Assembly: GCF_004300825.1 (NCBI RefSeq) | Contig: NZ_CP036250.1 | Location: 3,049,001-3,113,000 of the forward strand | Direction of reading: 5' to 3' | Length of the DNA stretch: 64,000 nucleotides | From: Egicoccus halophilus | GTDB lineage: Bacteria > Actinomycetota > Nitriliruptoria > Nitriliruptorales > Nitriliruptoraceae | Shown: one piece after another, positions 7,938-24,521 of the stretch | How the letters are laid out: every line of letters starts with the position of its first letter | How positions within the stretch are numbered: position 1 is the first letter of the stretch | Notes under the pieces: model-generated | The model's input: the letters and a program-made list of their open reading frames with translations, nothing else | Told to the model about the DNA's origin: nothing | The model's database searches: none | Translations under genes and position numbers: made by a program

Positions 7938-8035
7938 CGAACCGGCCTCCCGTCGAAAACTCGGCAACTACCGTGCCGACGTGCACGGCCGAAGCGGATT
8001 CTGCCGCGCCCGGCGGCGGTGCAGGGAGAACCATC

Positions 8036-8410
8036 ATGCCGATGCCGCGGTGGTGGGGGCAGATCAACAAGCGCCTGTTCAACCCGCGGGCGATCGAGCG
8101 CGACACCTGGCCGGTGCTCACCCACGTCGGACGCCACTCCGGCCGCACGTACCGCACCCCGATCGGCGCGCACGCGGTCGAGGGCGGCTACCTCGTCTAC
8201 CTGGTGTACGGCTCACAGTCGGACTGGGTACGAAACGTGCTGGCCGCCGGGCACGCCCGGCTGCGCTTCGAGGGGCGCGACGTCGAGGTCACCGCGCCCC
8301 GCCTGGTCGGGCGCGACGAGGCGTTCGCCGTCCTGGACCCCGAGGTCGCGAGGCCGCCGAAGCTGCTGCGCATCACCGAGTTCCTGCGCCTGGACGCCAC
8401 GACCGACTGA
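8036..8410 (+). CDS. Deazaflavin (F420)-dependent nitroreductase family protein
   Basis: A 124-aa member of the DDN/DUF385 split-barrel family, which use reduced F420 to reduce nitro compounds, quinones or other substrates. Family features are the THVGRHSGRTYRTPI strand-turn, SDWVRNVLAAG and the EVTAPRLV segment. The ATG with AGGGAGA before it gives the normal length. Immediately after the stop, the same frame continues with a decayed membrane-protein fragment. A degraded copy of residues about 64-92 appears near 9.6 kb. Confidence 0.82.
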   Translation: MPMPRWWGQINKRLFNPRAIERDTWPVLTHVGRHSGRTYRTPIGAHAVEGGYLVYLVYGSQSDWVRNVLAAGHARLRFEGRDVEVTAPRLVGRDEAFAVLDPEVARPPKLLRITEFLRLDATTD

Positions 8411-9397
8411 CGCGGCGGCTACGACAACACCGCCCGCGACCTGGTCCTCAACCTCGCCGGCGGGGTCGTCGCCGGCTGGTGGCTCCGGTCGCGACCGCCG
8501 CCCGCACGCCACCGGTCGACGACGTCGAGCGACACCGGAGCGCGACGACCTCGTCGAACGCCTGAGCGGACGCCGCCGCTGCCGGCGTGCAGCACCCCCC
8601 GGCGGTCGGAGGTCGTGGACGACCCAGACGTTGGGTTCGACGTAGACGGCGTGGTCCTGGTCCACGTCGACGTGCACCGGCACCAGGGCCCCGGCGACCT
8701 CGACCCGACCGGACTCCCGCAGCGGCAGCCCGGACCAGCTGCGCCACTCGGCGAGGCTGCCCGCGACCGTCATCGACCGCGGACACACGGCCTCGATGCG
8801 TCCGCCGGCCCGGACGTGCAGCCGCAGCCACGAGTCCCACGGCAGCCCGTCGTCGCCGGTCCGGGCGGCGTACTCGGCCATCGGGGTGTGCGGCTCGAAG
8901 TGCTTGCGGCTCGGACGCACGGGCGCGACGAGACCGCCCGCACCGATGGCGCGGGCCGCGTCCTTCATCGCGGCGAGCAGCCGTTGCGCGAGCCCGGTCC
9001 CCCGCAGGTCGGGGACGACCGTGATCTCCAGGGCGGAGACGTGGGTGGGCGCACGACCCGCCAGGTGATCGAGCCACGCCCAGCTGATGACCCCGTCCCA
9101 GCCTGCCACCGGCAACTCGGTGCGCCCGAGCTCCTCCCCCATGGCGAACGGCACGGAGAACGCCCGGGCGACGATCCGGTCCTCGTGCAGGGCGACGAAC
9201 GCGTGCGCGGCGTGGTCCTCGAGGCGTGCGAAGTACAGGTCACCGACCGGGTCGTGCAGCATGAACGGCGGCCACAACTTGGTCAGGTCCCAGCAGCGCT
9301 CCTGCAGCTCCGGGCGCCGCGCGAGCGAATGGATCTCGACCGGTGCGTCGTCGTCCCGGCCCGCCGGCGTCCCGGGCGGCATCCCCTGTGTCCCCAT
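8213..9397 (-). CDS. GNAT-family N-acetyltransferase with aberrant C-terminal read-through
   Basis: The N-terminal part of about 260 residues is a recognisable GNAT protein: PDLRGTGLAQRLL is the acetyl-CoA-binding motif A, followed by the family-specific VRPSRKHFEPHTPMAEYA and a C-terminal YVEPNVWVVHDL, where relatives normally end. Here no stop follows. The frame runs about 130 further residues antisense to the membrane remnant and to the end of the nitroreductase gene. The original stop was probably lost when neighbouring DNA decayed. The ATG at 9397 is the start; a GTG three codons upstream is possible. The substrate is unknown. Confidence 0.65.
   Translation of the reverse strand: MGTQGMPPGTPAGRDDDAPVEIHSLARRPELQERCWDLTKLWPPFMLHDPVGDLYFARLEDHAAHAFVALHEDRIVARAFSVPFAMGEELGRTELPVAGWDGVISWAWLDHLAGRAPTHVSALEITVVPDLRGTGLAQRLLAAMKDAARAIGAGGLVAPVRPSRKHFEPHTPMAEYAARTGDDGLPWDSWLRLHVRAGGRIEAVCPRSMTVAGSLAEWRSWSGLPLRESGRVEVAGALVPVHVDVDQDHAVYVEPNVWVVHDLRPPGGAARRQRRRPLRRSTRSSRSGVARRRRPVACGRRSRPEPPAGDDPAGEVEDQVAGGVVVAAASVGRGVQAQELGDAQQLRRPRDLGVQDGERLVAPDQAGRGDLDVAPLEAQPGVPGGQHVSYPVRL
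8411..8505 (+). pseudogene. Remnant of a membrane-protein C-terminus
   Basis: Directly after the nitroreductase stop, the frame reads GYDNTARDLVLNLAGGVVAG followed by WWLRSR. This is the pattern of a last transmembrane helix preceded by an Asp-bearing loop, as in small VanZ/DUF2238-like membrane proteins. There is no start and no further homologous sequence. I read it as the surviving tail of a deleted gene. Confidence 0.35.
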
Positions 9398-9463
9398 GGA
9401 CGGCACCGTAGCCGCAGCGAGGTCCAGATGGGGGCGGACGCCGCCGCCTGCCCGCTTTCAACC

Positions 9464-9665
9464 CGGCGAGGTCGCGCCCGACGCGCCGCTGGGCCGTGGA
9501 CGCGGCGACGTCGTGCTGGCCGCGACCGACGGCGCGGTGCCGTTCCCCCTTGGTCAACGGCTCGCGGTCGACTGGGTGCCGACCGTGCTCGTCGCCTGGC
9601 ACGCCCGGCTGCACCTCGAAGGGAGTGACGTCGAGGTCACCGCGCCCCGACTGGTCGGGAGCTCT
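9464..9665 (+). pseudogene. Chimeric gene relic: methyltransferase piece joined to nitroreductase piece
   Basis: Bases 9464-9550 closely match the RlmM-like methyltransferase gene at 22,897-22,995 (including GACGTCGTGCTGGCCGCGAC), with a small internal deletion. Bases 9566-9663 match the nitroreductase gene at 8221-8318 (including GTCGAGGTCACCGCGCCCCG). Neither part has a start or full domain. The rest of the 9407-9840 gap shows no gene. Confidence 0.7.
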
Positions 9666-9840
9666 TGTCGCACGCGAATCGGAACGTGACCGCGTGGAGC
9701 GTGCCGGATGGTCGGGTGGAGGTCGATCCCGCCAAGGTCAGCCAGCGTGTCGCTGGTGGGACCTGGCCGCGGACGCTACCGGTCTCGACGGCGGGCTACG
9801 CCGGCTTGTCGATCAGGATGAGCTTGCGTCGGCGATGACG

Positions 9841-10974
9841 TCACGAGAAGGGAGAGCCGGTCTGGCCGGGGAACGCGGCCAGACGCTCTTCGTCGACCTG
9901 CACACCGAGGCCGGGAGCGTCACTGGTCCGGGCGAGACCGTCGACAACGCGCACCCCGCCGTCGAGGACGCCGTCACGGAATGGGTTGTCGATCGACGCG
10001 TCGGCCTCGAACCAGGCGTCTGCACCCAGCCCCCGGACGAGGTGCAGCGTGGCCGCGTGGTTGAGCCCGCTGTGCGAGATGTGCGGGGCGAGGCGTCGAC
10101 CGCTGATGCGCGCCAAGGCCGCGATCCGAGCGGCCTCGGTGATGCCGCCGCAGCGACTGACGTCCGGCTGGACGACGTCGATCGCGCCGGTGTCGATCCA
10201 GTCGTAGAACTGGTGCGCGCCGATGAGGTTCTCGCCACCGGCAAGGGGAAGCGTGCTGACCTGCCGCAACCGGACGAAGGCGGCACGCCGGGTCGGGGCA
10301 TAGGGCTCCTCGAGCCACACCACGCCCAGCTCCTCGAGCGGACGCACGATCCGGGCCACGTCATAGGGCAGCCCGCTGTTGGCGTCGAGCATGATCTGCA
10401 GCTCGTCGCCGAAAGCGTCCCGCACGGCGCGCACCCGGGCCAGGTCCCGCGAAGGATGATCACCGACCCGCACCTTGATGGCACCGACCCCTAGCCGTGC
10501 CGTGATCTCGGCAGCAGCCTCGACGAGGCGGGCCGGTTCTTGGAAGCCGAGCGCGAACCCACCGCCGTAGGCGGGCACCGGTCCGAGCGTGCCGCCGAGG
10601 AGTTCCGCGACGGGCCGCCCCTCGACCTTGCCGCGGGCATCCCACATGGCGATGTCGACCCCGCTCAACGCGCCGAGGAAGGCGTCGCTCATGCCGGCCC
10701 CGTCGACGAACCGCCGGTGGACGTGGTCGTTGAGCCCGACGGCGTCGTGCACCTCGCGGCCGACGACGACCCGGTGCAGGGTCGTGTTGACGATCTCCGC
10801 CACCGCCGTGCCGGCGTGTCCGTGGAAGGACTCGCCGTGACCGGTGGTGCCGTCCTCGGTGGTGACCCGCACCAGCACCACGTCCCGTCGGTCAGGGCTG
10901 CCGACGCTGAGCGGGCGGGGTGGTTCGGGGAAGCGGTAGCTCAGGACCTGGGCGTGGACGTCGGTGATTCGCAT
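9841..10974 (-). CDS. Enolase-superfamily enzyme 1 (mandelate racemase/muconate lactonizing type)
   Basis: A 377-aa protein with the capping domain followed by a TIM barrel. The acid/base strand reads K167-V-R169, metal ligands are Asp197 (LDAN), Glu222 (WLEEP) and Glu248 (AGGEN), and Asp271 with His298 (APHIS) forms the other catalytic dyad. Such enzymes abstract the proton alpha to a carboxylate to racemise, dehydrate or cycloisomerise acids. It is the last gene of the nine-gene operon, 18 bp after enolase 2. KxR instead of KxK resembles sugar-acid dehydratases. The specific substrate cannot be assigned. Confidence 0.88.
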   Translation of the reverse strand: MRITDVHAQVLSYRFPEPPRPLSVGSPDRRDVVLVRVTTEDGTTGHGESFHGHAGTAVAEIVNTTLHRVVVGREVHDAVGLNDHVHRRFVDGAGMSDAFLGALSGVDIAMWDARGKVEGRPVAELLGGTLGPVPAYGGGFALGFQEPARLVEAAAEITARLGVGAIKVRVGDHPSRDLARVRAVRDAFGDELQIMLDANSGLPYDVARIVRPLEELGVVWLEEPYAPTRRAAFVRLRQVSTLPLAGGENLIGAHQFYDWIDTGAIDVVQPDVSRCGGITEAARIAALARISGRRLAPHISHSGLNHAATLHLVRGLGADAWFEADASIDNPFRDGVLDGGVRVVDGLARTSDAPGLGVQVDEERLAAFPGQTGSPFS

Positions 10975-10992
10975 CGTGAGGTGCGCTCCTCG

Positions 10993-12084
10993 TTAGTCGA
11001 GCGTCCAGACCCGGTGGTCGACGGCGTCCGCCTCCAACTGTTCGGGCGTGTAGGGGAAGCCGATGCCGGGCACGTCCGGCGGCTCGACGTAGCCCGGGCC
11101 GCTCAGCGGGTGCAGCAGCTTGACCGGATCCTCGGCCACGACGATCTCGTAGCCCATGTGGTTGGACACGGCGCAGGCCAGATGCAGATTGGGCAGCCCG
11201 GCGGCGTGGATCTCGGCGTTGAGGCCGAACGCGTCGGCGAGGTGGCTGACGCGCAACGCCCCGGTGATGCCGCCCTTGTAGAACGTGGAGGTGCGCACGA
11301 TGTCGGCCGCACCGGAGGTGATGAAGTCGGCGATGTTCCAGTGGATGCCGTCGCTGGTCTCCCCCGCGAGCACCGGGATCTCCAGGTCCTCGCGCAGGCG
11401 CCGGTAGCGCCACAGGTTGAACTCGCGCATCGGCTCCTCGAAGACCGCAAAACCGGCGGCGTGCAGTTCCCGACCCAGGACCCGCGACTCGTCAAGGGTG
11501 AACCCGCCGGAGGCGTCGTAGGTCAGCCGGATGTCGTCACCGACGTGGGAACGCAAAGCGTGCGCGAGGGCGGCGTCCTCGCGCACGTCACCCCAGGCGT
11601 GAATCTTGATGTCCCGGAAACCGAGGTCGAGGCACTGGTCCGCGACATCGAGGTAGGCCTCGATCGAGGGATAGGTGGCCGTGCTGGCGTAGGCGGTGAC
11701 GCGGCGCTGTGCCCCTCCCAGAAGCTCGTAGAGCGGCCGGCCGGCCAGCTTGGCGGTCAAGTCCCACAGGGCGATGTCCAGGACCCCGTGGGCGTAGAGC
11801 GGAATCTCCTCGACCCGGTCGACCTCCCACACCTCGTGCCAGAGTCGTTCCTTGAGCAGCGGATCTGCGCCGAGGGCGATGTCCTTGAAGCGCCGTTCGA
11901 TGAGATCCTGTCCGATGACGCCGCGCGAGACGGTGCCGTAGCCGACGTGGCCGTCGTCGGTGTGCAGCGACAGCACGGTGACCTCGGAGATCTCACCGGA
12001 GCCGGGCATGCCGCGGCGCCACACGAACTGCGGGTCGCGGACGGTGTGTAGCGTGGACGCGCGGACCTCGGTGATCGTCGTCAT
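10993..12084 (-). CDS. Enolase-superfamily enzyme 2 (MR/MLE type, KxH)
   Basis: A 363-aa capping domain plus barrel protein. The second-strand acid/base motif is K160-I-H162, the metal ligands are Asp190, Glu216 (FEEP) and Glu242 (AGE), and His293 (EIHAAG) is the likely partner base. The KIHAWGD segment is typical of sugar-acid dehydratase-like MR members. The ATG overlaps the stop of enolase 3 by four bases (ATGA), which indicates tight coupling and fixes the start. It is clearly not a recent duplicate of enolases 1 or 3. It probably acts on a second stereo-configuration or a later intermediate of the same pathway. Confidence 0.88.
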   Translation of the reverse strand: MTTITEVRASTLHTVRDPQFVWRRGMPGSGEISEVTVLSLHTDDGHVGYGTVSRGVIGQDLIERRFKDIALGADPLLKERLWHEVWEVDRVEEIPLYAHGVLDIALWDLTAKLAGRPLYELLGGAQRRVTAYASTATYPSIEAYLDVADQCLDLGFRDIKIHAWGDVREDAALAHALRSHVGDDIRLTYDASGGFTLDESRVLGRELHAAGFAVFEEPMREFNLWRYRRLREDLEIPVLAGETSDGIHWNIADFITSGAADIVRTSTFYKGGITGALRVSHLADAFGLNAEIHAAGLPNLHLACAVSNHMGYEIVVAEDPVKLLHPLSGPGYVEPPDVPGIGFPYTPEQLEADAVDHRVWTLD

Positions 12085-13259
12085 CGGGTGACCTGTTCGT
12101 CGGCGTCCAGGGCGGCTTGCTGCGGAACACAGCCCCAGCCGGGACCGGTGGGCAGCTGCATCCGGCCGTCGACGACTTGGGGGGCGGTGTCGGTGACGTC
12201 GTCGCGCCACGGCACACCCTCGACGTCCAGCTCCATGATCGAGAGGTTGGGGGCGACGGCCGCGAGATGGGCGGCCATGAAGCTCATGAGGTGACTGGCG
12301 TAGTTGTGGGTCACGATGTCCGCGCGGTAACGAGCGGCTTCGTCGGCCATCCGGACGCTCTCGGGCATGCCGTTCCAGACCGGGTCGATGATGGGGACGT
12401 CGACGAGGCGTCCCTGCAGGAACGGGCGGAACTCCTCCACGCCGTGCAGCGTCTCGCAGGAGGCGATGCGCAGGCCGCTCGGTGCGCGCAGCCGGCGAAG
12501 CAGGTCCGGCGTCTTGGTGTCCAGCTCGAGCCAGTCGAGGCCGGCCTCGGCGGCGACGTCGGCCAGTTCCTGCAGCAGCGCCGGCTCGCGGATGTTGTAG
12601 TTGATGTCCAGGAAGATGCCGACGTCGGGGCCGGCGCCCCGGCGCAGGGCGCCGATGACGGCGGCGACATCGCGGAGCACCGCACGCCGCTCGAAGGGGT
12701 CACCAAGCGAACCCGGGGCGGCCGTGGTGCGGATGTAGGCACCGTCCGGGCCGAATCCGAGCAGATTGGTCTTGAGGGCGTGATAGCCGCGATCGCGGAC
12801 CTCACGGCCGAGCGCCTCGAGGTCGTCGGGGGTGCGGATCGCCTCGCCGAGGCCGGACTCGGCCATGCGGATGCGGGTCAGGCCGCAGTGTGACCAGTAG
12901 ACCGGGATGTCGTCGCGCACGGGCCCGCCCAGCAGCGCGTACACGGGCACGTCGAGACTGCGGGCGTGCAGGTCGAGGCAGGCGTTGAGCAGCACGGCGA
13001 CGGCCCGCAGGTTCTGTCCGCCGGGCGCCTCGCGGATGCGTTCGTGCAGCAGTGCCTCGACGTGTCGGGTCCGCCTCGGGTCGAGGCCCACGATGCCGGC
13101 ACCCAGCGCGTGGACGGCGCCTTTGAGGCCGTGACTGCCGAACTGGTCGTCGGAGAACTCCGACCAGCCCTCGAGTCCAGCGTCGGTCTCGAGCTTGCAG
13201 AAGGACCACGCACGGTTGCCGGCTTGCCGCCGGTAGGTACGCAGGGCGGTGATGCGCAT
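12081..13259 (-). CDS. Enolase-superfamily enzyme 3 (MR/MLE type, KxN)
   Basis: A 392-aa protein and the most divergent of the trio. The acid/base strand is K163-T-N165, the metal ligands are Asp218 (FLDIN), Glu245 (WLELD) and Glu269 (SCETL), and the partner His318 lies in VTHNY. An extended loop after the second barrel strand (about residues 168-195) may cover the active site. The gene follows the importer ATPase gene by 53 bp. KxN enzymes in this superfamily include acid-sugar dehydratases, but several functions are known, so I do not name a reaction. Confidence 0.86.
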   Translation of the reverse strand: MRITALRTYRRQAGNRAWSFCKLETDAGLEGWSEFSDDQFGSHGLKGAVHALGAGIVGLDPRRTRHVEALLHERIREAPGGQNLRAVAVLLNACLDLHARSLDVPVYALLGGPVRDDIPVYWSHCGLTRIRMAESGLGEAIRTPDDLEALGREVRDRGYHALKTNLLGFGPDGAYIRTTAAPGSLGDPFERRAVLRDVAAVIGALRRGAGPDVGIFLDINYNIREPALLQELADVAAEAGLDWLELDTKTPDLLRRLRAPSGLRIASCETLHGVEEFRPFLQGRLVDVPIIDPVWNGMPESVRMADEAARYRADIVTHNYASHLMSFMAAHLAAVAPNLSIMELDVEGVPWRDDVTDTAPQVVDGRMQLPTGPGWGCVPQQAALDADEQVTR

Positions 13260-13312
13260 GCGAAACGGCTCCTGGGTGGTCGGGGCGCCTACGGATCGAT
13301 GGCGCGGGTGCG

Positions 13313-14440
13313 TCAGCCCTCGGCCGGCACGAAGTGGACGTGGCTGGCAGCGACGCCGACGGTGACCCGGTCGCCCGGCTCGACAGGCTCTTCGGGGTGC
13401 AGCACCGCACGGATCGGCTGGCCGGCGACCTCGAACGTCACGTCGGTGCGTGGCCCGAGGTAGGCGGCCTGCACGACCTGCCCGATCCAGCGGTTTTCCA
13501 TGGCCTCGGCCGCATCGCCGACGACGACGTTCTCGGGGCGGAACACGGCGACGGCGTCGCCCTCGCCGGCGGCGGTGTGCTCGAGCTCGCCGACGACGGC
13601 GATGTCACCGCTGGCCGTGGCGAGTCGGCCGGCACCGGACCCAAGATCGGTCAGCCGGCCCCGCACGAGGTTGGCGTTGCCGACGAAGGACGCCGCGAAC
13701 ATCGACGCCGGCCGGCGGTAGAGCTGCCGTGGCGGGTCGGCCTGCTCGATAACCCCATGGTTCATCAGCACGACCCGGTCCGACATGGACATGGCCTCGG
13801 TCTGGTCGTGCGTGACGTAGAGGGCCGTCAACCCGACCTGGCGCTGCAGTTCGAGCAGCTCCTCTCGCATCCGCTCGCGCAGGCCGGCATCGAGGTTGCT
13901 GAGTGGCTCGTCGAACAGGATGACCCCGGGGCGGGTGACCACCGCCCGGGCCACGGCGACACGCTGCTGCTGACCGCCGCTGAGCTCGGTGCCGAAGCGG
14001 TTCTCCAGGTGTGGCAACCCGACCAGTTCGAGTGCCTCGAGGGTGCGCTCGCGGACCAACCTGGGGTTCGCTCCGCGTCCGCGAAGCCCGTAGGCGACGT
14101 TGTCGAACACCGACATGTGCGGCCAGATCGCGTACGACTGGAACACCATGTTGATGCCGCGACGCTCGGGGGGCACCTCCACCCCGGGCCCGGCGACGGT
14201 CCGTCCGTCGATGGCGATCGTCCCGCCCGACGGGGTCTCGAGCCCGGCGATGCACCGCAGCGTGGTGCTCTTGCCGCAGCCGCTCGGACCGAGCAGCGTG
14301 ATGAAGTCGCCCGGTTCGGCCGCGAAGCTGATGCCGCTCACCGCCTCGACCTCGCCGTAGCGAACCACGAGGTCGCGCACCACGAGCGAGGATCCGCGCG
14401 CGGACTTCGCGGTCGCCTGCTGCTGCAAGGTTGCTTCCAC
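13313..14440 (-). CDS. ABC importer ATP-binding subunit (AfuC/FbpC/PotA type)
   Basis: A 375-aa ATPase with Walker A GPSGCGKST (51-59), signature LSGGQQQR, Walker B VILFDEPLSNLD and a C-terminal TOBE-type domain (about 290-375), as in Fe3+, polyamine and phosphosugar importers. The GTG start is chosen for the GAGGAG upstream; an open frame continues far upstream without a start signal. It lies 44 bp after the permease gene. The operon context argues for import of a catabolic acid rather than iron. Confidence 0.9.
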   Translation of the reverse strand: MEATLQQQATAKSARGSSLVVRDLVVRYGEVEAVSGISFAAEPGDFITLLGPSGCGKSTTLRCIAGLETPSGGTIAIDGRTVAGPGVEVPPERRGINMVFQSYAIWPHMSVFDNVAYGLRGRGANPRLVRERTLEALELVGLPHLENRFGTELSGGQQQRVAVARAVVTRPGVILFDEPLSNLDAGLRERMREELLELQRQVGLTALYVTHDQTEAMSMSDRVVLMNHGVIEQADPPRQLYRRPASMFAASFVGNANLVRGRLTDLGSGAGRLATASGDIAVVGELEHTAAGEGDAVAVFRPENVVVGDAAEAMENRWIGQVVQAAYLGPRTDVTFEVAGQPIRAVLHPEEPVEPGDRVTVGVAASHVHFVPAEG

Positions 14441-14484
14441 CTGTCGCTCCTCGGCTCGGCGGCCTCGCCGCCGCTCGGACTGGG

Positions 14485-16242
14485 TCACACCTGCGTCGAC
14501 GAGAGCTTCACCCGGAACAGGAACCGGGCGATCAGCACGCCACCGATCAGCACCAGCGTCTGCAACAGCCCCACGACGGCGGCGTTGCGCACGGTGCCGT
14601 CCTGGATGTAGCCCCACGCCACGACGGAGAGGATCTGGGTGTCCGGGGCGTAGAGCAGGATCGCCGTGTTGATCTCCCGGACGACGAACACGAACACCAG
14701 CACCCAGGCGGACAGCAGCGACGGCTTGCTCAGCGGCAGGGTGATGCGCCGCAGGGTCCGCATCCGGCTGGCGCCGGTGACGCGGGAGGACTCCTCCAAC
14801 GCCGGATCGATCTGCATCAGGGAGTTGCCGGCGAAACGCGCGGCGTGCGGGATGTAGGTCCCCATGAACGCGATCACCAGCAGGGTGAGGGTCGCGTACA
14901 GCGGCGTCCTGACGTACACCCACAGCATGCCGGTCGCGAAGACGATGCCGGGGATCGCGATCGGCACGGTCGCCAGGTAGTCGACGACGGCGCCGGTCCG
15001 CCCGCTCATCCGCACGACGCAGTAGGCGGCCGCCAGCCCGAGCAGCACGGTGGCCGTCGGGGTGACCACGCCGAGCACGAGCGTGTTGATCGTCGCGTCG
15101 ACGATGCGGCCGGAGCTCGCGACCTCCAGGAAGTTGTTGAACGAGAACTGCATCTGACGGAAGTCGGTGATGGTGAACGGGTTGAGCGACGCGATCCCCA
15201 GCGCCACGTAGGGCAGCAGGGTCGCGAACAGCAGGTAGCCGAGGAAGACCGCGCTGATCAGGTAGCGCACCCACCCCAGGCGCACGACCCGGGGGCGGGT
15301 CCCGCGCGCGCTGATGGTCACGTAGCGCGAGGCATGCCGGATGGCGCGTCGGTAGAAGTACACCCCGAGAACGGTGAACCACAGCAGCAGGGTGCCGATG
15401 GCCGCACCGCGGGCGTGATTGGTCGGCCAGATCGACATCGACCGGTAGACCTCGACCGCGAGGACGTTGAAGGTCGCGTTGAGGCCGAGCACGCCCGGCA
15501 CCGAGAAGATGCCGGTGGCCAGGACGGCGATGAAGAAGAACGCGGCCAGCAACGCCGGCCGGATGATCGGAAAGGTGACGTGCCGAACCGTGGCGATGAC
15601 GCCGCGCCCGTTGAGGTACGAGGCCTCCTCCAGCGAGGGGTCCATGTTCTTGAGCGCCGAGGAGACGAACAGATATCCGTAGGGGATGTAGTACAGGTTG
15701 AGGACGAACACGACACCCGTGAACGTCATGATGTTCACGAAGGTGGCGTCGGTGTCCAGCAGCCAGCGCAGGTTCACGTTGACCATGCCGGAGTTGGGGG
15801 CGGCCAACGCGACCCAGGCGAGCGCGCCCACGAAGGGCGACAGGAACAGCGGGGCGATCACGGACAGCTCGAACAGGTTCTTCCACCGGAGGTCGGTGCG
15901 GGTGAGCAGCCACGCGGCGCACGCCCCGAATGTGGTCGAGATGGCGGCCACCCCCACGGCCATCAACAGCGTCCAGCCCAGCGTCGCCAGGTACGGCCCG
16001 GTCGTGTAGACCTCGCGGACGGCGGTGAGGGTGAAGCCCTGGTCCGCCATCCCCGGCGCGCCGGTGCGCACCGCCCCGTAGAAGATCGCGGCGACCGGCG
16101 CGACGATGAGACCGCTCAGAATCACCAGGACGGTGGTCACCAGGGCGCGCTCACGCAGGACCGCCACCACCGTGCCGAGTGCGCTGCGCGGCGGTTCGGA
16201 CGATGACGACGTCTCGGTCCTGTCCGCCAATGACGTGCTCAT
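14485..16242 (-). CDS. ABC importer permease, two fused membrane domains (AfuB/FbpB type)
   Basis: A 585-aa protein with about 12 membrane helices in two homologous halves. Each half carries an EAA loop that contacts the ATPase: near EEASYLNGRG in the first half and EESSRVTGASR in the second. Fused-permease architecture is characteristic of the Fe3+/2-aminoethylphosphonate/hexose-phosphate branch of ABC importers. Together with the flanking binding protein and ATPase it makes a complete uptake system. In the same operon as three enolases, an ALDH and dehydrogenases, the cargo is probably a carboxylated or otherwise anionic sugar-like compound (inference). Confidence 0.9.
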   Translation of the reverse strand: MSTSLADRTETSSSSEPPRSALGTVVAVLRERALVTTVLVILSGLIVAPVAAIFYGAVRTGAPGMADQGFTLTAVREVYTTGPYLATLGWTLLMAVGVAAISTTFGACAAWLLTRTDLRWKNLFELSVIAPLFLSPFVGALAWVALAAPNSGMVNVNLRWLLDTDATFVNIMTFTGVVFVLNLYYIPYGYLFVSSALKNMDPSLEEASYLNGRGVIATVRHVTFPIIRPALLAAFFFIAVLATGIFSVPGVLGLNATFNVLAVEVYRSMSIWPTNHARGAAIGTLLLWFTVLGVYFYRRAIRHASRYVTISARGTRPRVVRLGWVRYLISAVFLGYLLFATLLPYVALGIASLNPFTITDFRQMQFSFNNFLEVASSGRIVDATINTLVLGVVTPTATVLLGLAAAYCVVRMSGRTGAVVDYLATVPIAIPGIVFATGMLWVYVRTPLYATLTLLVIAFMGTYIPHAARFAGNSLMQIDPALEESSRVTGASRMRTLRRITLPLSKPSLLSAWVLVFVFVVREINTAILLYAPDTQILSVVAWGYIQDGTVRNAAVVGLLQTLVLIGGVLIARFLFRVKLSSTQV

Positions 16243-16344
16243 GGCTCGCCTCTACCTTCGCTCGTTGCCCCGCGCTGCGCGTGTCGGTCGGGTCCCGCGG
16301 GTGTCGGCCGACGTGGCGCGGCACCCGCGGAAGTCCCGATCGTG

Positions 16345-17508
16345 TCACCCGAACGTGGCACTCCACCACTCGAAGAACTCGCCGTCCTCGGCGATCTGCG
16401 CCTGGATCTCCTCGTCGTCGATCCAGCCGAAGAAGAGCTGCTCGTCCGAGGGGGTCTGGTACCAGTCCGTCTCGAGGATCTCGCGGTCATCGCTCGCCTC
16501 GGCGTTGGACGGCGGGGTCTGCGTGATCGAGGAGTAGCGCTCGCTGGCCTCCGGCGAGGTGGCCCACTCCATCAGCAGCCGGGCGGCCGCGGGGTGGGGC
16601 GCGTTGGCCGAGATGCCGACTGCGAAGGCGCCGGCAACGGCCGGGTCGGGGTAGACCCAGCGCACCGGCGCGCCGGCCATTGCCTGGGAGGCGATCAGGC
16701 TGTCGGTGATCCCGATGCCGACGGCGTGCTCACCCGAGACGATCCGTTCCATGAGCGCCAACGAGTCGTCGTAGCTGGTGGCGCCACCCTCGCGGATTCG
16801 CTCCAGCAGATCTCGGTCGATCGAGTTGTAGAAGGCGGCCGCCTGCTGGGACGCGTACGGCGAGCCCGTCGCGACGCGACCGTCGAAGTCCTCGCTCGCG
16901 AGCGTGCCGAAGGGGTCTTCCTCGAGCCGGGCGATCTCGTCGTCATCGAGCTGGTCGGAGTTGAACGACACGGTCTGGGTGAAGAAGTTCTGGACCGGGT
17001 ACAGGTGGCCCGAGCGGGTGATGTCCTCGGGGAACAGCCCGTCACCCTCGGGGGTGTACTCGGCGATGTGGCCGGCCTCGACGGCGTCTTCCATCGGTGG
17101 CAGGTCGGCGATCGAGACGACGTCCGCCTGGTGCTGTCCGGCGCTGGTCTCCTGCTGCCACTGCTCGTAGAGCGCGCTACCGGGCTGGCGCAGGATGCTG
17201 ACGTCGATGTCGTACTCCTCCTCGAAGCCGTCCAGCCAGGCCCGCAGCGAGGCCTCGTTCGCGTCGCCGTAGTAGGTGAGTTGTCCCTCCTCCTGCGCGG
17301 CGGCGATCAGGTCGTCACGGCTGGCGTCAGCGTCGTCGCCCGTCGCCGTCACGGTGGCCCAGTCGACCTCACCGTCCGCCGAGTCGGGGGCGGCACCGTC
17401 GTCGCCGCCGTTGCCGTTGTCACCGCCGCACGCCGCGGCGAACAACGCCGTGACGGCCAGCGTCGTGGTGATCAGCCGACGGGGTCGGCGTCGTGTCCTG
17501 GCACCCAT
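16345..17508 (-). CDS. ABC importer substrate-binding lipoprotein (AfuA/IdiA type)
   Basis: A 387-aa extracellular solute-binding protein. The N-terminus has a basic stretch, a hydrophobic core and the lipobox FAAAC with Cys27, then a short Gly/Asp linker. The mature protein has the two-lobe fold of the Fe3+/phosphosugar-binding family, with LTYYGDANEASLRAWLDGF at the start of lobe 1 and VGIGITDSLIASQ in the hinge region. The ATG at 17,508 with GGGAGAG upstream is preferred to longer frames. The two-Tyr metal site of true Fe3+ binders cannot be confirmed by eye. It supplies the permease encoded next. Confidence 0.9.
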   Translation of the reverse strand: MGARTRRRPRRLITTTLAVTALFAAACGGDNGNGGDDGAAPDSADGEVDWATVTATGDDADASRDDLIAAAQEEGQLTYYGDANEASLRAWLDGFEEEYDIDVSILRQPGSALYEQWQQETSAGQHQADVVSIADLPPMEDAVEAGHIAEYTPEGDGLFPEDITRSGHLYPVQNFFTQTVSFNSDQLDDDEIARLEEDPFGTLASEDFDGRVATGSPYASQQAAAFYNSIDRDLLERIREGGATSYDDSLALMERIVSGEHAVGIGITDSLIASQAMAGAPVRWVYPDPAVAGAFAVGISANAPHPAAARLLMEWATSPEASERYSSITQTPPSNAEASDDREILETDWYQTPSDEQLFFGWIDDEEIQAQIAEDGEFFEWWSATFG

Positions 17509-17608
17509 GCTGCTCTCCCTCTGGTCGCGATCGGCGCGTGTCCGGCACCGACCGGCTGGTCCCGCCGCGAGACCGTGCTGGTCCACGACGTGTTCGTGTC
17601 CGTGTCGT

Positions 17609-19060
17609 TCACGGCAGCCCGACGTACTGCGTCTCGACATAGGCCTCGAGTCCCTCGGCGCCGCCCTCCCGGCCCAGTCCCGACTGTTTCGCTCCCCCGA
17701 ACGGGGCCGCCGGTTCGGAGATGACCCCGCGGTTGACGGCGACCATTCCGGTCTCCAGCCGCTCGGCCAGCCGGCGGCACCGGTCGACGTCGCGACCGTG
17801 CACGTAGGCGATCAGTCCGAACGGCGTGTCGTTGGCCCGCTCGATCGCCTCGTCCTCGGAGGCGACCGCCGTGATCGGTGCGACGGGCCCGAAGATCTCC
17901 TGTCGGAGGATTTCGGCGTCCACCGGGCACGGGTAGAGCACCGTCGGGGCGTAGAAGCTGCCCGGGCCGTCCACGGCGTCACCGCCGATCAGCGCCTTGG
18001 CGCCGCGGTCGCAGGCGTCGCGCACCAGGGCCTCGATGCGCTCGCAGGCGGCGCGGTCGATGAGGGCGCCGACGACGTCGTCGCCGTCCCAACCGGGCGC
18101 GAGCGGCGGTCGTTGCAGGCGCACCGCCAGGGCGTGCGCGAACGGTTCGGCCACGGACTCGTGGACGAGGAAGCGGTTCGCCGCCACGCACGACTGACCG
18201 ATGTTGCGCATCTTGGCGATCGCCGCCGCGTCTGCGGCTGCCTCGACGTCGGCGTCCTCGAGCACGAGGAAGGGCGCGTTGCCGCCGAGCTCCATCGAGG
18301 TCCGCAGCACGTTGCCGGCCGCGCTGCGCAGCAGCTCGCGTCCCACCTCGGTCGAGCCGGTGAACGACAGCTTGCGCAGCCGAGGGTCGGCCAGCAGCGG
18401 CTCCACCAGCGCGCGGGCGCGGCTGGTCGCGAGCACGTTGACCACCCCGTGCGGGGTGTCGAGCTCGTCGAAGATCTGCGCGAGCCGGTTCGCCGACAGG
18501 GGCGTCTCGGGTGCCGGCTTGGTGATCGTCGTGCAGCCGGCGGCCAGCGCGGGCGCGACCTTGCGGGCCAGCATGGCCAGCGGGAAGTTCCACGGGGTGA
18601 TGAACAGCGAGGGGCCGACCGGCCGGGCATAGGTCTCGATGCGTCCGTTGGCGTGCGGTGCCTGGGCGGTCCGCCCGCCGATGCGCACGGCCTCCTCGCT
18701 GTACCAGCGGAAGAACTCCGAGGCGTAGGTGACCTCGGCGCGCGACTCGTTGCGGGACTTGCCCATCTCGGTCGCGATGAGCTGCGCCAGTTCCTCGCGC
18801 TGGGCGACGAGCGTGTCGAAGACGGCACGAAGCAGCTCGGAGCGCTCCCGCGGCGAGGTGGCGGCCCAGGACGGCTGGGCGGCCACGGCGGCGTCCAACG
18901 CGCGGCGTGCCTCGTCGGGGCCGGCGTCGGCGACCGTGGCGACGACCTGATCCGTGGCCGGATCGGTGACCGGGAAGGTCCGGCCGTCGTCGGCGTCGTG
19001 CCAGGCCCCTGCGACATAGAGCCCGGTGGGCACCGGCGGAATCGTCGGCGTGTCAACCAT
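17609..19060 (-). CDS. NAD(P)+-dependent aldehyde dehydrogenase (semialdehyde-dehydrogenase-like)
   Basis: A 483-aa ALDH that would oxidise an aldehyde or semialdehyde to an acid. Seen are the cofactor segment FITPWNFPLAM, FTGSTEVGREL, the general base Glu257 in MELGGN, the nucleophile Cys291 in GQSCVAANR and the C-terminal EIFGPV signature. The overall look is GabD/SSADH-like, a group that also includes 2-oxoglutarate-semialdehyde and sulfolactaldehyde dehydrogenases. The ATG at 19,060 has GGAGGTG before it and overlaps the Fe-ADH stop by eight bases. It is the likely oxidative exit of the pathway. Confidence 0.9.
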   Translation of the reverse strand: MVDTPTIPPVPTGLYVAGAWHDADDGRTFPVTDPATDQVVATVADAGPDEARRALDAAVAAQPSWAATSPRERSELLRAVFDTLVAQREELAQLIATEMGKSRNESRAEVTYASEFFRWYSEEAVRIGGRTAQAPHANGRIETYARPVGPSLFITPWNFPLAMLARKVAPALAAGCTTITKPAPETPLSANRLAQIFDELDTPHGVVNVLATSRARALVEPLLADPRLRKLSFTGSTEVGRELLRSAAGNVLRTSMELGGNAPFLVLEDADVEAAADAAAIAKMRNIGQSCVAANRFLVHESVAEPFAHALAVRLQRPPLAPGWDGDDVVGALIDRAACERIEALVRDACDRGAKALIGGDAVDGPGSFYAPTVLYPCPVDAEILRQEIFGPVAPITAVASEDEAIERANDTPFGLIAYVHGRDVDRCRRLAERLETGMVAVNRGVISEPAAPFGGAKQSGLGREGGAEGLEAYVETQYVGLP

Positions 19061-20363
19061 CTGCGGCACCTCCAGCGGCGTCGGCGTCCTCGGCGGCAGG
19101 TCCGTCGGCAGCGCGTCCGTCGGCAGCGGGCGAGGCATCGGCCAGCAAGTCCGCCAGCTCGCCGTGCCAGGCCGCGTGGACGACGCGGGTGACGTCGAGG
19201 GCGGCCATGACTCGGCCGTTGTTGTCGAGCAGTCGCCGTGCCGCGAGCGCCCCGTCGACGACCGCCGGGAGGTCGACCTCGCGCACCCCCAGCTCGCGCA
19301 GCGTGGGCGGCAACCCGATCGACCGGCACAGGTGTTCGACCATCCGCACCGCGTTCGACGCCCCCGTGTCGGCGTCGGTGTCGGCGTCGGCGCCGAGGGC
19401 TTCGGCGACGCGGGCGAGCTCCCTCGTGCGGACCGGGCGGTTGTAGGCCATGGCGTAGGGCAACAGCAGGCCCGTCCCGACCCCGTGCGGGGTACGGGTC
19501 AAGTAGCCGACGGGGTACTGGATCGCGTGGGCCGTGCCCGTGCCCGCCTGGCCGAAGGCGAGGCCGGCGAGCAGGCTGCCGTACGCCATCCGGTCGCGGG
19601 CGTCGCGTGTCGGGTCGTTGACCGCCACGGCCAGGGCGGTCCCGATGGCGCGGATGGCCTCGAGGGCGAGGGCGTCGCTCAGGGCGGCCTTGCCGATGAA
19701 CCCGGTGGGAGCGACGCCGAGGTCGGCCGGGGTCCGGCCGTCGCGGGCGGTGAAGGCCTCGACGGCATGGCACAGGGCGTCGATGCCGGCAGCGGCGGTG
19801 ACGCCAGCGGGACAGGTGTCGGTCAGTCCGGGGTCGACCAGGGCGAGCGTGGGCACCAGGTGGCGGCTGGACACCCCGACCTTGCTGCCACGTTCCTCGT
19901 CGGTGAGGACCGCGACCGGGGTGACCTCGGAGCCGGTGCCCGCCGTCGTCGGGACGGCCACCACCGGCGGGATCGGGCCGGGCACCTTGGCTTCGCCGAT
20001 GTACTCCCCCAGCGAGCCCGGGTGGGTCACCCGGATGCCGACGAGCTTGCCGAGGTCGAGGGCGCTCCCGCCGCCGATCGCCACGATCGCGTCACACCCC
20101 TCGGTCTCGTAGCGCCGAGCCGGGGCGTCGGCGCTGTCGAAGCCGAACTCCAGTTCCTCGCTGGGGTGGAGCACGTGCTCGACGCCGGCGTCGGCGAGAG
20201 TGGCGACGACGTCCTGAACCGCGGCCAGGTCCTGCACGTGCCGGTCGACGACGACCAGGACGCGGCGGGCCAGGCGGGCGGTCTCGCTGCCCAGCGTGGT
20301 GGCGACCCCGCGTCCGAACAGGACGTTGCCCGGGGATCGCAGCATGCTCAGTTCAGACGGCAT
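19053..20363 (-). CDS. Iron-containing alcohol dehydrogenase (group III)
   Basis: A 436-aa Fe-ADH family protein. The N-terminal Rossmann-like part contains the GGGSALDLGK cofactor loop, followed by a C-terminal helical domain with metal-ligand His residues in DALCHAVEAF and GTAHAIQYP. Members reduce aldehydes or oxidise alcohols with Fe2+ or Zn2+; maleylacetate and lactaldehyde reductases are relatives. The ATG at 20,363 has a GGAG upstream and overlaps the end of the previous gene by 11 bases. The C-terminal tail is unusually rich in Ala/Asp and extends past the family end. The substrate is unknown. Confidence 0.88.
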   Translation of the reverse strand: MPSELSMLRSPGNVLFGRGVATTLGSETARLARRVLVVVDRHVQDLAAVQDVVATLADAGVEHVLHPSEELEFGFDSADAPARRYETEGCDAIVAIGGGSALDLGKLVGIRVTHPGSLGEYIGEAKVPGPIPPVVAVPTTAGTGSEVTPVAVLTDEERGSKVGVSSRHLVPTLALVDPGLTDTCPAGVTAAAGIDALCHAVEAFTARDGRTPADLGVAPTGFIGKAALSDALALEAIRAIGTALAVAVNDPTRDARDRMAYGSLLAGLAFGQAGTGTAHAIQYPVGYLTRTPHGVGTGLLLPYAMAYNRPVRTRELARVAEALGADADTDADTGASNAVRMVEHLCRSIGLPPTLRELGVREVDLPAVVDGALAARRLLDNNGRVMAALDVTRVVHAAWHGELADLLADASPAADGRAADGPAAEDADAAGGAADG

Positions 20364-21384
20364 GGGGAACTCCGGCCTGGTCGGCGAGGTCGCACAGGCG
20401 TTGCCAGGTGGCGTCCGCCACGGGCACGCCCGCCTGTCGGTTGCGGCTGCGGGTGCGTCGGCCGCCGTCACCGGGGATGCGGATGTCCGCGGAGCCGGCG
20501 GCCAGGGGCGAGTCGCGTACCTCGGCGAGGTAGGCACCCACGTGCTTCTCCGGTTCGACGATGCCCAGCACGTTGGGGTCGATCACGATGAACACGTCCC
20601 CCTTGGTCGGCGGGCAGTCCTCGTCGAGGGTGCCGGTGACGTCGCGTCCGAGATGGGTCCCGGTGAGGGCTCCGACCAGTGCCTCGATGGCGATGCCGAG
20701 GGCGTAGCCCTTGACGCCGCCGAAGGGGCTGAGTGCACCGTCGATGGCCGCGGCCGGGTCCCGGGTCGGCACGCCGTCGGCGTCGAGCGCCCATCCGTCG
20801 GCCAGCTCACCGCCTTCGTGGAGGGTGGCGATCACCCGTCCCATCGAGACGGCGGCGGTGGCCATGTCGAGCACGAGGGGTTCGGGCTCGGCGGGCACCG
20901 CGATCGCCAGCGGGTTGGTGCCCACCATGGCGTCGCGGCCACCCCAGGGGTGGACCAGCGCCTCGCTGGTGGTGACGGCCAACGCGACGTAGCCGCGTTG
21001 CGCGAGGTCCTCGAGGTAGAAGGCCAACATGCCGAGGTGGTTGGCGTTGCGGATGGCGGCCAGGGCGATGCCGTGGCGTGCGGCGCGTTCCTGCAGCGCG
21101 GCGAGGGCGCGGGTCACGACGACCGGGCCGAGGCCGTGGTCGCCGTCGACGACGAGCGCGCTCTCGCTGCGCCAGTCGAAGGCGATCCGGGGGTTGGCGT
21201 TGGCGACGCCGTTGGCGAGCCGGCCGATCAAGGTCGGCAGGCGCTGTACGCCGTGGGAGGCGTGCTCCCGTGCGTCGGCCTCGACCAAGAGTCGCGCCTG
21301 GAGGTGCGCCGCATCCTCCGGCACGTCCGCGGCCGTCAGGATGGTGGCGCACATCTGCAGCAGGTGCTCGTACGCGAGTCTCAT
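20353..21384 (-). CDS. Malate/L-lactate dehydrogenase family oxidoreductase (Ldh_2)
   Basis: A 343-aa NAD(P)-dependent 2-hydroxyacid dehydrogenase of the Ldh_2 family, which is unrelated to classical LDH. The family covers malate, ureidoglycolate, sulfolactate and 2,3-diketogulonate oxidoreductases. Visible features are the catalytic His region ANHLGMLAFY, the TSEALVHPWGG and GTNPLAIAVP segments, and FGGVKGYALGIAIE near the C-terminal third. The ATG with GGGAGG upstream is chosen over one six codons earlier. It is the first gene of the operon, divergent from the IclR regulator. Confidence 0.9.
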   Translation of the reverse strand: MRLAYEHLLQMCATILTAADVPEDAAHLQARLLVEADAREHASHGVQRLPTLIGRLANGVANANPRIAFDWRSESALVVDGDHGLGPVVVTRALAALQERAARHGIALAAIRNANHLGMLAFYLEDLAQRGYVALAVTTSEALVHPWGGRDAMVGTNPLAIAVPAEPEPLVLDMATAAVSMGRVIATLHEGGELADGWALDADGVPTRDPAAAIDGALSPFGGVKGYALGIAIEALVGALTGTHLGRDVTGTLDEDCPPTKGDVFIVIDPNVLGIVEPEKHVGAYLAEVRDSPLAAGSADIRIPGDGGRRTRSRNRQAGVPVADATWQRLCDLADQAGVPHAV

Positions 21385-21558
21385 GCCGCGTGGCCCTCCC
21401 AAGCCGGGGTACCGTCCACTCGCACTGTTCGCACTTGTGTACGGTTATTCTCCTATGTGTCCGAGTAAAGCACCGGAAGATCAGACCCGCAAGACTCCGT
21501 TCCCTGCCACCCGCCCCAACCGTGCGCCGCGTCAGCGCCGCCCTGCCCGAGGTTCCTG
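21385..21558. promoter_or_regulatory. Divergent control region between catabolic operon and IclR gene
   Basis: These 174 bp must hold both promoters. The stretch around 21,430-21,470 is AT-richer than its surroundings (GGTTATTCTCCTATGTGT). I see no clean palindrome that I can call as the IclR operator, so only the general function is supported. Confidence 0.5.
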
Positions 21559-22350
21559 ATGACCGAGACCACCAGATCCGCCCCTCGGACCGTGAAGTCG
21601 GCGAAACGCACCGTCGAACTGCTGCTGCTGTTGGCGCAGCCGGAGGGGCGGTTGGGACTGGCCGAGATCGCTCGGCGTCTGTCGATGCCCAAGAGCAGCG
21701 CCCACAGCCTGGTCACCACTCTGGTCGCGCAGGGCGCGCTGACCACGGACAGAGCCGGCGACTACGCGCTCGCGCCACACTTCCTCGCCGTGATCGACGA
21801 CGCGTACAAGCGACTCGATATCCGACATGCCGCCATTGACGTCATGCGCGACGTCTCCTCACGACTGGCGGCGACCTGCAACCTCGCGACGCTCGACGGC
21901 CACGACGTCGTCTACGTGGACCAGGTCCGCGACGAGTCGCACCCGATGCAGCTGACGACGCACATCGGCGTGCGCATCCCCGCTCATGCCACGGCGCTCG
22001 GCAAAGTACTGGTCGCCGAGATGTCGGACACCACGCGCAATGCCTGGATGGGTGCGCACACCTTTTCGGCGATGACCGGACGCACGGTGGAGTCCGCGGC
22101 ACGGATGCACGAGGAGATCGAACGCTACCGGCGACTCGGCTACGCGACCGACGACGAGGAGCTGCACGAGGGCGTGTTGTGCATCGCCGCGCCGGTCAGG
22201 GACAGCTCGGGCGATGCGGTCGGCGCGATCAGCGTCACGACGATCAAGTCGCGGCTGCTGCTCAGCAGCGACGACGCGAAGGCAGACGCCGGCACGGCGC
22301 TGCGTGAAGCCGGACAGATGATCTCACGCCGGCTCGGCTGGATGGGATGA
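21559..22350 (+). CDS. IclR-family transcriptional regulator
   Basis: A 263-aa regulator with an N-terminal winged helix-turn-helix (about residues 12-75; LAEIARRLSMPKSSAHSLVT) and a C-terminal effector-binding domain with the family segments GVRIPAHATALGKV and YATDDEELHEGVLCIAAPV. IclR proteins usually bind an acid metabolite and control a neighbouring catabolic operon. Its divergent position next to the nine-gene operon makes it the probable regulator of that operon. The start ATG follows CGAGG. Confidence 0.92.
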   Translation: MTETTRSAPRTVKSAKRTVELLLLLAQPEGRLGLAEIARRLSMPKSSAHSLVTTLVAQGALTTDRAGDYALAPHFLAVIDDAYKRLDIRHAAIDVMRDVSSRLAATCNLATLDGHDVVYVDQVRDESHPMQLTTHIGVRIPAHATALGKVLVAEMSDTTRNAWMGAHTFSAMTGRTVESAARMHEEIERYRRLGYATDDEELHEGVLCIAAPVRDSSGDAVGAISVTTIKSRLLLSSDDAKADAGTALREAGQMISRRLGWMG

Positions 22351-22433
22351 AGCAAGCGCGACCCGGCTCGGCGCCTCCCACCGAGCCGGTTTCGTCGAGC
22401 GGTAGTGTCTGCTTCTCAGTCCACAAGACGTGC

Positions 22434-22467
22434 CGATGCCTACGTCCCCCCGATGCCTACGTCCCCC
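22434..22467. repeat. 17-bp perfect tandem duplication
   Basis: CGATGCCTACGTCCCCC is repeated head to tail in the 236-bp gap before the methyltransferase gene. No coding or clear regulatory function is visible in the rest of the gap. Confidence 0.85.
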
Positions 22468-22586
22468 CGAGCGTCAGCATGGCAGTGTGCACGCTCCTCC
22501 GAGGGCACAGACGTGACGACGATCACCCAGATCCGTGGCAGCTTCCTCGAAGTTGCCGCACCCCGCCGCTGGCGGTCCGCACAGCC

Positions 22587-23510
22587 ATGACGACGGCCTA
22601 TCTCGCCGCCGAGGACTTCGAGGCCGAACTCGACGAGGAGCTGCGCCTCGCCGGTGTGGTCGTGGGCCAGCGGCACGGTCGGCTGCTCCTCAGCGAGAGC
22701 CCGCCGGTGCACGCCGCGTGGGCCGCCAACACCTGGTGGGACGCCGAGCGGATCGAGGTCCGCTCCATCGGCGACGCCGCCCGGCAGCTGCGGGCCCGCC
22801 AGCGCAACTGGGCCCGGTACGCCCCGACCCTGCGCGGACGTGCGGAGCTGATCGCCGACAAGCTGCCCCACGTCGCCGCCCGCCCGCTGGAGCTCGGTGA
22901 GGTCGCCCCCGACGCGCCGCTGGGCTCGTGGACGCTGCTCGAGCGCGACGTCGTGCTGGCCGCGACCGACTGTTCGGTGCCGTTCCCCAACGGCGTGCCC
23001 CAGTTCGTCGAGGACCGGCAGGGCCCGCCCAGCCGCGCCTACCTCAAGCTGTGGGAGACCTTCGCGCGGCTGCGTCGCCAGCCGCGCCCCGGCGAGCGCT
23101 GCCTCGACCTCGGCGCCGCCCCCGGGGGCTGGACGTGGCTGTTGGCCCGCACCGGCGCCGAGGTGGTGGCGCTGGACAAGGCACCGCTCGCCGCGGACGT
23201 CGCGGCGTTGCCGAACGTGAGCTGGGAACAGGGCTCGGCGTTCGCGCTCGACCCGGCCACGTTCGGACCGGTCGACTGGTGGTGCAGCGATCTCATCGCC
23301 TACCCGGACCGGCTGCTCGAGCTGGTGACGCGATGGCTCGACACGGGGCTGGTGCGCAACCTGGTGTGCACGGTGAAGTTCCAGGGCGCCACCGACCACG
23401 CCGTGGCCGCCCGCTTCGCCGCGCTGCCCGACGCGCAGCTGTTCCACCTCGACCAGAACAAGCACGAGCTGACCTGCGCGATCCTCGACGCGGGCGGCGC
23501 CCGTCGGTAG
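22587..23510 (+). CDS. RlmM-like SAM-dependent RNA 2'-O-methyltransferase
   Basis: A 307-aa protein with a Rossmann methyltransferase domain in its second half. CLDLGAAPGGW (motif I) is the FtsJ/RrmJ-type SAM-binding loop, preceded by ETFARLRRQPRPGE. Downstream, WWCSDLIAYPDR and CTVKFQGATDH supply the Asp and Lys expected in an FtsJ-type K-D-K-E tetrad. The arrangement resembles RlmM, which methylates C2498 of 23S rRNA, but the N-terminal part here is short and not clearly a THUMP domain. The ATG gives the first plausible start; no strong ribosome site is visible. It converges with the heliorhodopsin gene. Confidence 0.72.
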   Translation: MTTAYLAAEDFEAELDEELRLAGVVVGQRHGRLLLSESPPVHAAWAANTWWDAERIEVRSIGDAARQLRARQRNWARYAPTLRGRAELIADKLPHVAARPLELGEVAPDAPLGSWTLLERDVVLAATDCSVPFPNGVPQFVEDRQGPPSRAYLKLWETFARLRRQPRPGERCLDLGAAPGGWTWLLARTGAEVVALDKAPLAADVAALPNVSWEQGSAFALDPATFGPVDWWCSDLIAYPDRLLELVTRWLDTGLVRNLVCTVKFQGATDHAVAARFAALPDAQLFHLDQNKHELTCAILDAGGARR

Positions 23511-24342: not shown

Positions 24343-24470
24343 ACGGGAGGTCGCTTCGTCGTCGCACGTGCCGGCTCCGAGGACGAGCAGCTGGCCGGAC
24401 GGTGCGACGGCCATGCTGCCCGCGAGGCGGCCGGTTGTCGACCGGCGCGACCTCCGCTGGCGACGGCCCC

Positions 24471-24499
24471 TTGACAGCGTCGGCGGATCGGCGGATGCT
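24471..24499 (+). promoter_or_regulatory. Sigma-70-type promoter for the TetR gene
   Basis: A perfect -35 TTGACA (24,471-24,476), a 17-bp spacer and GATGCT as -10 (24,494-24,499) lie just before the TetR start, so the 5' leader is very short and carries the CAGGAGA ribosome site. Such a strong promoter next to its own regulator suggests autorepression. Confidence 0.65.
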
Positions 24500-24521
24500 C
24501 CGAACACCGTCAGGAGATCCG

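Follow-up and report, generated by a model that had tools for sequence, protein, structure and literature searches.

A nine-gene operon with three different enolase-superfamily enzymes in Egicoccus halophilus, a candidate oxidative hydroxy-acid pathway

We describe a nine-gene operon of the high-GC bacterium Egicoccus halophilus that, judged from its sequence, appears to encode a compact pathway for the oxidation of a hydroxy acid, in which three different enolases (E1, E2, and E3) take part. The operon lies in a stretch of 64,000 nucleotides (contig NZ_CP036250.1, positions 3,049,001 to 3,113,000), referred to here as the window. A first-pass annotation had noticed these genes and read them as an undescribed acid catabolic route; the observation is confirmed, and the interpretation is partly supported. 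In its general form, the scheme that we favor is the oxidation of a polyhydroxy acid to an intermediate of the tricarboxylic acid (TCA) cycle with neither kinase nor aldolase, and we give it a probability of about 0.6. Several features are consistent with this scheme: the set is found in five genomes and with two types of transporter, its aldehyde dehydrogenase (ALDH) belongs to the succinate-semialdehyde dehydrogenase (SSADH) subfamily and keeps carboxylate-binding residues, the operon is rare, and the corresponding site is empty in a genome of the same genus (G300).

The steps would run as follows. An ATP-binding cassette (ABC) importer would take up a small polyhydroxy acid, or acid sugar, and the mandelate-racemase-type enolases, each acting on its own stereoisomer or intermediate, would dehydrate it to a 2-keto-3-deoxy acid. 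The Ldh_2 enzyme would interconvert 2-hydroxy and 2-keto acids, thereby admitting further substrates or altering the configuration at C2; the iron-type alcohol dehydrogenase (Fe-ADH) would oxidize the terminal CH2OH group to a semialdehyde; and the SSADH-type ALDH would turn the semialdehyde into a dicarboxylate, by which the carbon would reach the TCA cycle, leaving kinase and aldolase unneeded.

The nine genes share the minus strand; from position 21384 to 9841, they read Ldh_2, Fe-ADH, ALDH, a lipoprotein solute-binding protein (SBP), a fused permease, an ATPase, E3, E2, and E1 (Table 1). Four of the eight junctions overlap (Ldh_2/Fe-ADH by 11 nt, Fe-ADH/ALDH by 8 nt, permease/ATPase and E3/E2 by 4 nt each), two have spacers below 60 nt (18 nt for E2–E1 and 53 nt for ATPase–E3), and two have spacers of 100–102 nt (100 nt for ALDH–SBP and 102 nt for SBP–permease). 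From this spacing, we infer that the nine genes are co-transcribed. A terminator scan gave two candidate sites, no more than shuffled sequence yields; a search of the region for sigma-70 promoters scored none; no inverted repeat was found in the spacer between the IclR and Ldh_2 genes; and an Rfam search of the window gave no match. Coordinates, Pfam domains, and junctions thus bear out the first-pass description of a one-strand set with several overlaps, divergent from an IclR-family gene. Neither aldolase nor kinase was found within the operon, which upholds, for its gene content, the earlier remark that a KDPG-type aldolase and a kinase are missing. None of the nine proteins reaches a curated NCBIfam cut-off, and therefore no described isofunctional family or pathway is matched; literature searches, covering open-licence papers, returned no account of this gene set. 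Both results fit the earlier label of an undescribed pathway.

Table 1. The operon and its bordering features, in window coordinates.
Feature	Position	Strand	Domains and nearest relatives
Scar downstream of operon	9437..9663	.	112-nt RlmM-like gene fragment joined to 113-nt F420H2-quinone-reductase gene fragment
E1, enolase superfamily, KxR (K167-V-R169)	9841..10974	-	PF13378/PF02746; nearest PDB 3bjs, E 6e-83
E2, enolase superfamily, KxH (K160-I-H162)	10993..12084	-	PF13378/PF02746; nearest PDB 4hcd/1rvk, E ~4e-52
E3, enolase superfamily, KxN (K163-T-N165; H318)	12081..13259	-	PF13378/PF02746; nearest PDB 2oo6, E 1.3e-77
ABC ATPase, GTG start	13313..14488	-	PF00005 + TOBE_2
Fused two-domain ABC permease	14485..16242	-	PF00528, two stretches
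Lipoprotein SBP	16345..17508	-	SBP_bac_11/1/8; lipobox LFAAAC in translation
ALDH, SSADH subfamily, 483 aa	17609..19060	-	PF00171, 503 bits
Fe-ADH, iron-type alcohol dehydrogenase, 436 aa from ATG	19053..20363	-	PF00465/PF25137
LDH2, Ldh_2 (malate/L-lactate-type) 2-hydroxyacid dehydrogenase, 343 aa	20353..21384	-	PF02615, 350 bits
IclR-family regulator, divergent from operon	21559..22350	+	PF01614 + PF09339

The gene set is more than a chance arrangement because it recurs in Microbacterium and in three Micromonosporaceae genomes. We scanned 84,980 species for the E3 family, with more than 590 matches, and then searched the loci found with all operon proteins by tblastn; genomes reached in this way come without quality labels. 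In four other genomes, all of distant actinobacteria, the catabolic genes (IclR, Ldh_2, Fe-ADH, ALDH, E1, E3, and a KxH enolase) again occur together, which makes five in all. Microbacterium sp. SYP-A9085 (L096) has the whole set, including an SBP, fused permease, and ATPase of the same transporter type (43%, 55%, and 61% identity to those of the operon, respectively). In Plantactinospora mayteni (L019, extended by L102–L104), E3 and E1 stand behind an NMT1/SsuA-like binding protein, and the run SBP, Ldh_2, Fe-ADH, ALDH, and KxH enolase is divergent from IclR; two more Micromonosporaceae genomes (G754 and G720) have the same set. In P. mayteni and these two relatives, SsuA/TauA-type binding proteins replace the transporter type of the operon, and IclR adjoins the catabolic genes in the modules of Microbacterium and of the Micromonosporaceae alike. 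Enzymes that stay constant while the transporter type varies are what would be expected of a pathway. E1 is 54–63% identical to its counterparts in the modules; other actinobacteria (G765 and G1120) have E1 relatives of about 45% identity that lie outside any module.

Genes for CoA-transferase and a short-chain dehydrogenase/reductase (SDR) that lie close to the Plantactinospora module were weighed as possible parts of the pathway and rejected, since neither the window nor Microbacterium shares them. Separately, three paralogous NMT1/SsuA-type binding proteins occur in one cluster (L103/L019 of P. mayteni, and L113–L116), the third with an ABC ATPase, permease, and ALDH set that adjoins CoA-transferase subunits and an SDR in P. 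mayteni; this set may be a linked second pathway.

The three enolases all exceed the cut-offs of PF13378 and PF02746, which places them in the mandelate-racemase type. By alignment, the catalytic positions—the KxX motif of the second strand, the acidic ligands of strands 3 to 5, and the histidine of strand 7—were located in each enzyme and are conserved in its relatives. Each second-strand motif is kept among the enzyme's own relatives, invariantly in the case of E3, so KxR, KxH, and KxN each characterize a family and cannot be put down to noise. Pairwise identity is 26–32%, and this low value, together with the different nearest relatives in the PDB, means that E1, E2, and E3 are not recent duplicates; the earlier view that they are not simple duplicates therefore holds. 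Each may suit a different stereoisomer or intermediate.

The enolases are also not matched to a known isofunctional group; membership in such groups, for one standard pathway, is what the first-pass annotation had named as counting against its reading. The cut-offs of the models for galactonate, arabinonate, rhamnonate, talarate/galactarate, ManD, and glucarate dehydratases are reached by none of the three; the best such NCBIfam equivalog scores are 164 bits for E1 and 132 bits for E2, each against a cut-off of 650, and 85 bits against 311 for E3. We found no function for the 3bjs-type (E1) or 2oo6-type (E3) families, though structures have been solved.

It is here that the standard oxidative route for aldarates (hexarates) has to be weighed, with E1 as a galactaro- or glucarolactone cycloisomerase, E2 as a galactarate or glucarate dehydratase, and the ALDH as a 2-oxoglutarate-semialdehyde dehydrogenase. 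The second PDB match of E1 is 4ggb, which we take to be a proposed galactarolactone cycloisomerase; the nearest PDB matches of E2 are Agrobacterium enzymes, presumably aldarate dehydratases; and clusters in Ensifer pair E1-like and E2-like enolases with kdgD. However, neither the operon nor the flanks examined around the modules encode a kdgD-type dehydratase, and the second DHDPS paralogue of the genome itself is remote, with 59 bits against a KdgD cut-off of 374. The route also leaves no role for Fe-ADH or Ldh_2, and scores against the talarate/galactarate dehydratase model are low (148 bits for E1 and 100 bits for E2, against 500). We consider this route unlikely, albeit the least unlikely of the alternatives discussed here.

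The ALDH scores 496 bits against the SSADH model TIGR01780 (cut-off 646), and we do not claim it as an SSADH; in its alignment with GabD (3jz4, E 9e-128), it keeps two arginines and a serine at positions that we take to bind the substrate carboxylate, and this conservation suggests that it works like an omega-semialdehyde dehydrogenase. Fe-ADH resembles lactaldehyde reductase and 4-hydroxybutyrate dehydrogenase, with every NCBIfam score under cut-off. The nearest PDB relative of LDH2 is 3uoe (E 1.6e-81).

Three independent contexts narrow the chemistry: E3 beside 2-hydroxyacid dehydrogenases (2-HADHs), the operons of E1 relatives, and the transporter of Rhizobium jaguaris. In proteobacteria, a PGDH-type 2-HADH lies directly beside E3, on the same strand and within 200 nt, in 14 of 80 loci; in the actinobacterial module, Ldh_2 takes this place and thus has the look of a non-orthologous substitute. 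E1, E2, Ldh_2, Fe-ADH, and SSADH are absent from most of the proteobacterial E3 neighborhoods examined, and E3 alone is thus no marker of the module. The 2oo6-type KxN family is itself common among Acetobacteraceae, Reyranella, and related bacteria, where a PGDH-type 2-HADH is often its immediate neighbor (L027, L031, L033, L050, L056, L061, L074, L076, L082, L083, and others); this pairing is a separate uncharacterised pathway.

The coupling of E3 to 2-HADHs in many loci would also suit a racemase-type route, in which the enolases epimerize a 2-hydroxy acid for oxidation by Ldh_2 to the 2-keto acid while Fe-ADH and ALDH handle the side chain. The three enzymes do belong to the mandelate-racemase type, and for individual ones among them such a role is possible. 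As a reading of the whole operon it is improbable: there is no thiamine-diphosphate decarboxylase, three distinct epimerases on one substrate would be unusual, and the second-strand motifs are KxR, KxH, and KxN, not the KxK of mandelate racemase.

The operons of E1 relatives point toward a carbon number. Three Cupriavidus plasmids (L119, L144, and L145) share a conserved six-gene operon of 2-HADH, SSADH, beta-hydroxyacid dehydrogenase (beta-HAD), tartrate dehydrogenase, 2-HADH, and E1-type enolase, for which we found no assigned function; the tartrate dehydrogenase reaches 570.7 bits (cut-off 470.4), and the beta-HAD resembles tartronate-semialdehyde reductase and L-threonate dehydrogenase. 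In Polaromonas JS666, the E1 operon has 2-HADH, SSADH, and beta-HAD with a KxH enolase and without tartrate dehydrogenase. The SSADHs of the proteobacterial E1 operons score 722–732 bits, above the cut-off of 646, and the reaction types in both kinds of operon match those of the module, with two enzymes of other folds. Because these neighbors point to four-carbon compounds, the likeliest concrete form of the scheme is a C4 version, in which tetronates (threonate and erythronate isomers) and/or tartrate isomers would be converted to oxaloacetate; we put this forward as a tentative reading only. Somewhat more doubtful still is a new pathway, free of kinase and aldolase, whose three dedicated enolases (KxR, KxH, and KxN) would lead C4 stereoisomers, tetronates and/or the three forms of tartrate, to oxaloacetate. 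The stereoisomers of tartaric acid number exactly three, and it is tempting to see in them the explanation for three enolases.

Several observations weigh against these proposals. The nearest relatives with structures are structural-genomics proteins or carry family-level annotation only. Between E2 and the KxH enolase of the modules, identity is no more than 29–35%, and the two may not be isofunctional. None of the actinobacterial modules examined has a tartrate dehydrogenase, and the one homologue in the genome of E. halophilus is under cut-off and far from the operon. Finally, the proteobacterial E1 homologues from which the C4 argument is drawn are only about 40% identical, and their substrate may differ.

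The transporter supplies the third context. Its closest plasmid relative, in R. jaguaris (48–51% identity), has two enolases at its flanks, one like galactonate dehydratase (302.7 bits, cut-off 311) and one like talarate/galactarate dehydratase, which indirectly favors the acid-sugar cargo proposed earlier; nothing specific to a sulfo- or phospho-sugar acid, the other part of that proposal, was found. If the substrate were instead a hydroxy acid carrying a sulfonate or phosphonate group, this would agree with the best NCBIfam model for LDH2, L-sulfolactate dehydrogenase (257 bits, cut-off 500), with the nearest models of permease and ATPase, PhnU2 (149 bits, cut-off 593) and PhnT2, and with the SsuA/TauA-type binding proteins of the Plantactinospora modules. 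All these scores are far under cut-off, the operon has no sulfo-lyase, phosphonatase, or C-P lyase, and the R. jaguaris transporter adjoins plain aldonate/aldarate-type enolases; we regard this as very unlikely, and the weak likeness of LDH2 to sulfolactate dehydrogenase did not sustain the earlier suggestion.

In architecture, the importer is like those of the AfuABC and PhnSTUV types, with an SBP, a fused permease, and an ATPase with a TOBE domain; it differs in scoring far under the equivalog cut-offs, in its link to enolases, and in its SBP. FbpA-type Fe3+ binding proteins carry a Tyr-Tyr iron motif, and no such ligands were seen where they would be expected, in the C-lobe, either in the SBP or in its relatives. 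Binding of Fe3+ only, which the earlier annotation had named as counting against its proposal, is disfavored for this reason. A structure prediction of the SBP from two sequences (pLDDT 40) was discarded.

Among known systems, the closest in logic are the non-phosphorylative acid-sugar pathways, of the Weimberg type and Routes I–III (PMC6336799). They too convert a polyhydroxy acid to a 2-keto-3-deoxy acid that is oxidized into central metabolism, with transporter and regulator co-encoded; in contrast, the operon lacks an aldolase, a DHDPS-family dehydratase, and an FAH-type hydrolase, has three enolases in place of one dehydratase, and is completed by Fe-ADH, Ldh_2, and an SSADH-type ALDH. 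The Polaromonas and Cupriavidus operons share the E1-type (3bjs family) enolase, 2-HADHs, an alcohol or beta-hydroxyacid dehydrogenase, and SSADH, and Polaromonas the KxH enolase too; they use PGDH-type and beta-HAD folds instead of Ldh_2 and Fe-ADH, have no E3, and, in Cupriavidus, add tartrate dehydrogenase. A similar logic in another lineage is seen in SAR202, where many enolase paralogues are paired with dehydrogenases in sugar-acid pathways (PMC10444878).

Two enolase families, 3bjs-type E1 and 2oo6-type E3, are now tied to fixed partner enzymes in five genomes, and an orphan-enzyme problem is narrowed to a short, testable list of substrates. Kinases are known in tetronate use; the C4 reading, if true, would add an oxidative tetronate/tartrate route without them, and the three-enolase pathway would give both families their first functions. 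New beyond the first-pass annotation are the actinobacterial module, the acquisition scar, and the parallel proteobacterial operons of E1 and E3.

The operon is rare and was probably acquired horizontally. In each genome, the searches scored only a few top candidates, and the prevalence figures are therefore minimum values. E1 (E <= 1e-50) turned up in 1 of 36 genomes from the order, and not in the other 35; E3 (E <= 1e-30) in 3 of 296 genomes of the phylum; and strong E1 matches in 4 of 251 Micromonosporaceae and in 2 of the 395 genomes from the class to which P. mayteni belongs. In G300, the GyrI-like and RlmM-like genes are about 1.9 kb apart with a single ABC-F gene between them and no operon; in the window, about 14.6 kb, operon included, separates them. 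The scar lies directly downstream of the operon, and its two fragments (82% identity with blastn E 4e-29, and 83% with 1e-29) fit an insertion event, at a locus subject to turnover within the genus.

Across the same-genus genomes, the GyrI-like/RlmM-like interval (window 7320–23510) holds the operon here and an ABC-F ATPase in G300, and in G009 a GyrI-like sequence adjoins RlmM, which suggests a site of gene turnover. Just past the RlmM-like methyltransferase gene that borders the operon lies a heliorhodopsin gene (window 23557–24747, minus strand; PF18761, 329.5 bits), and the DNA neighboring it is also kept in G300.

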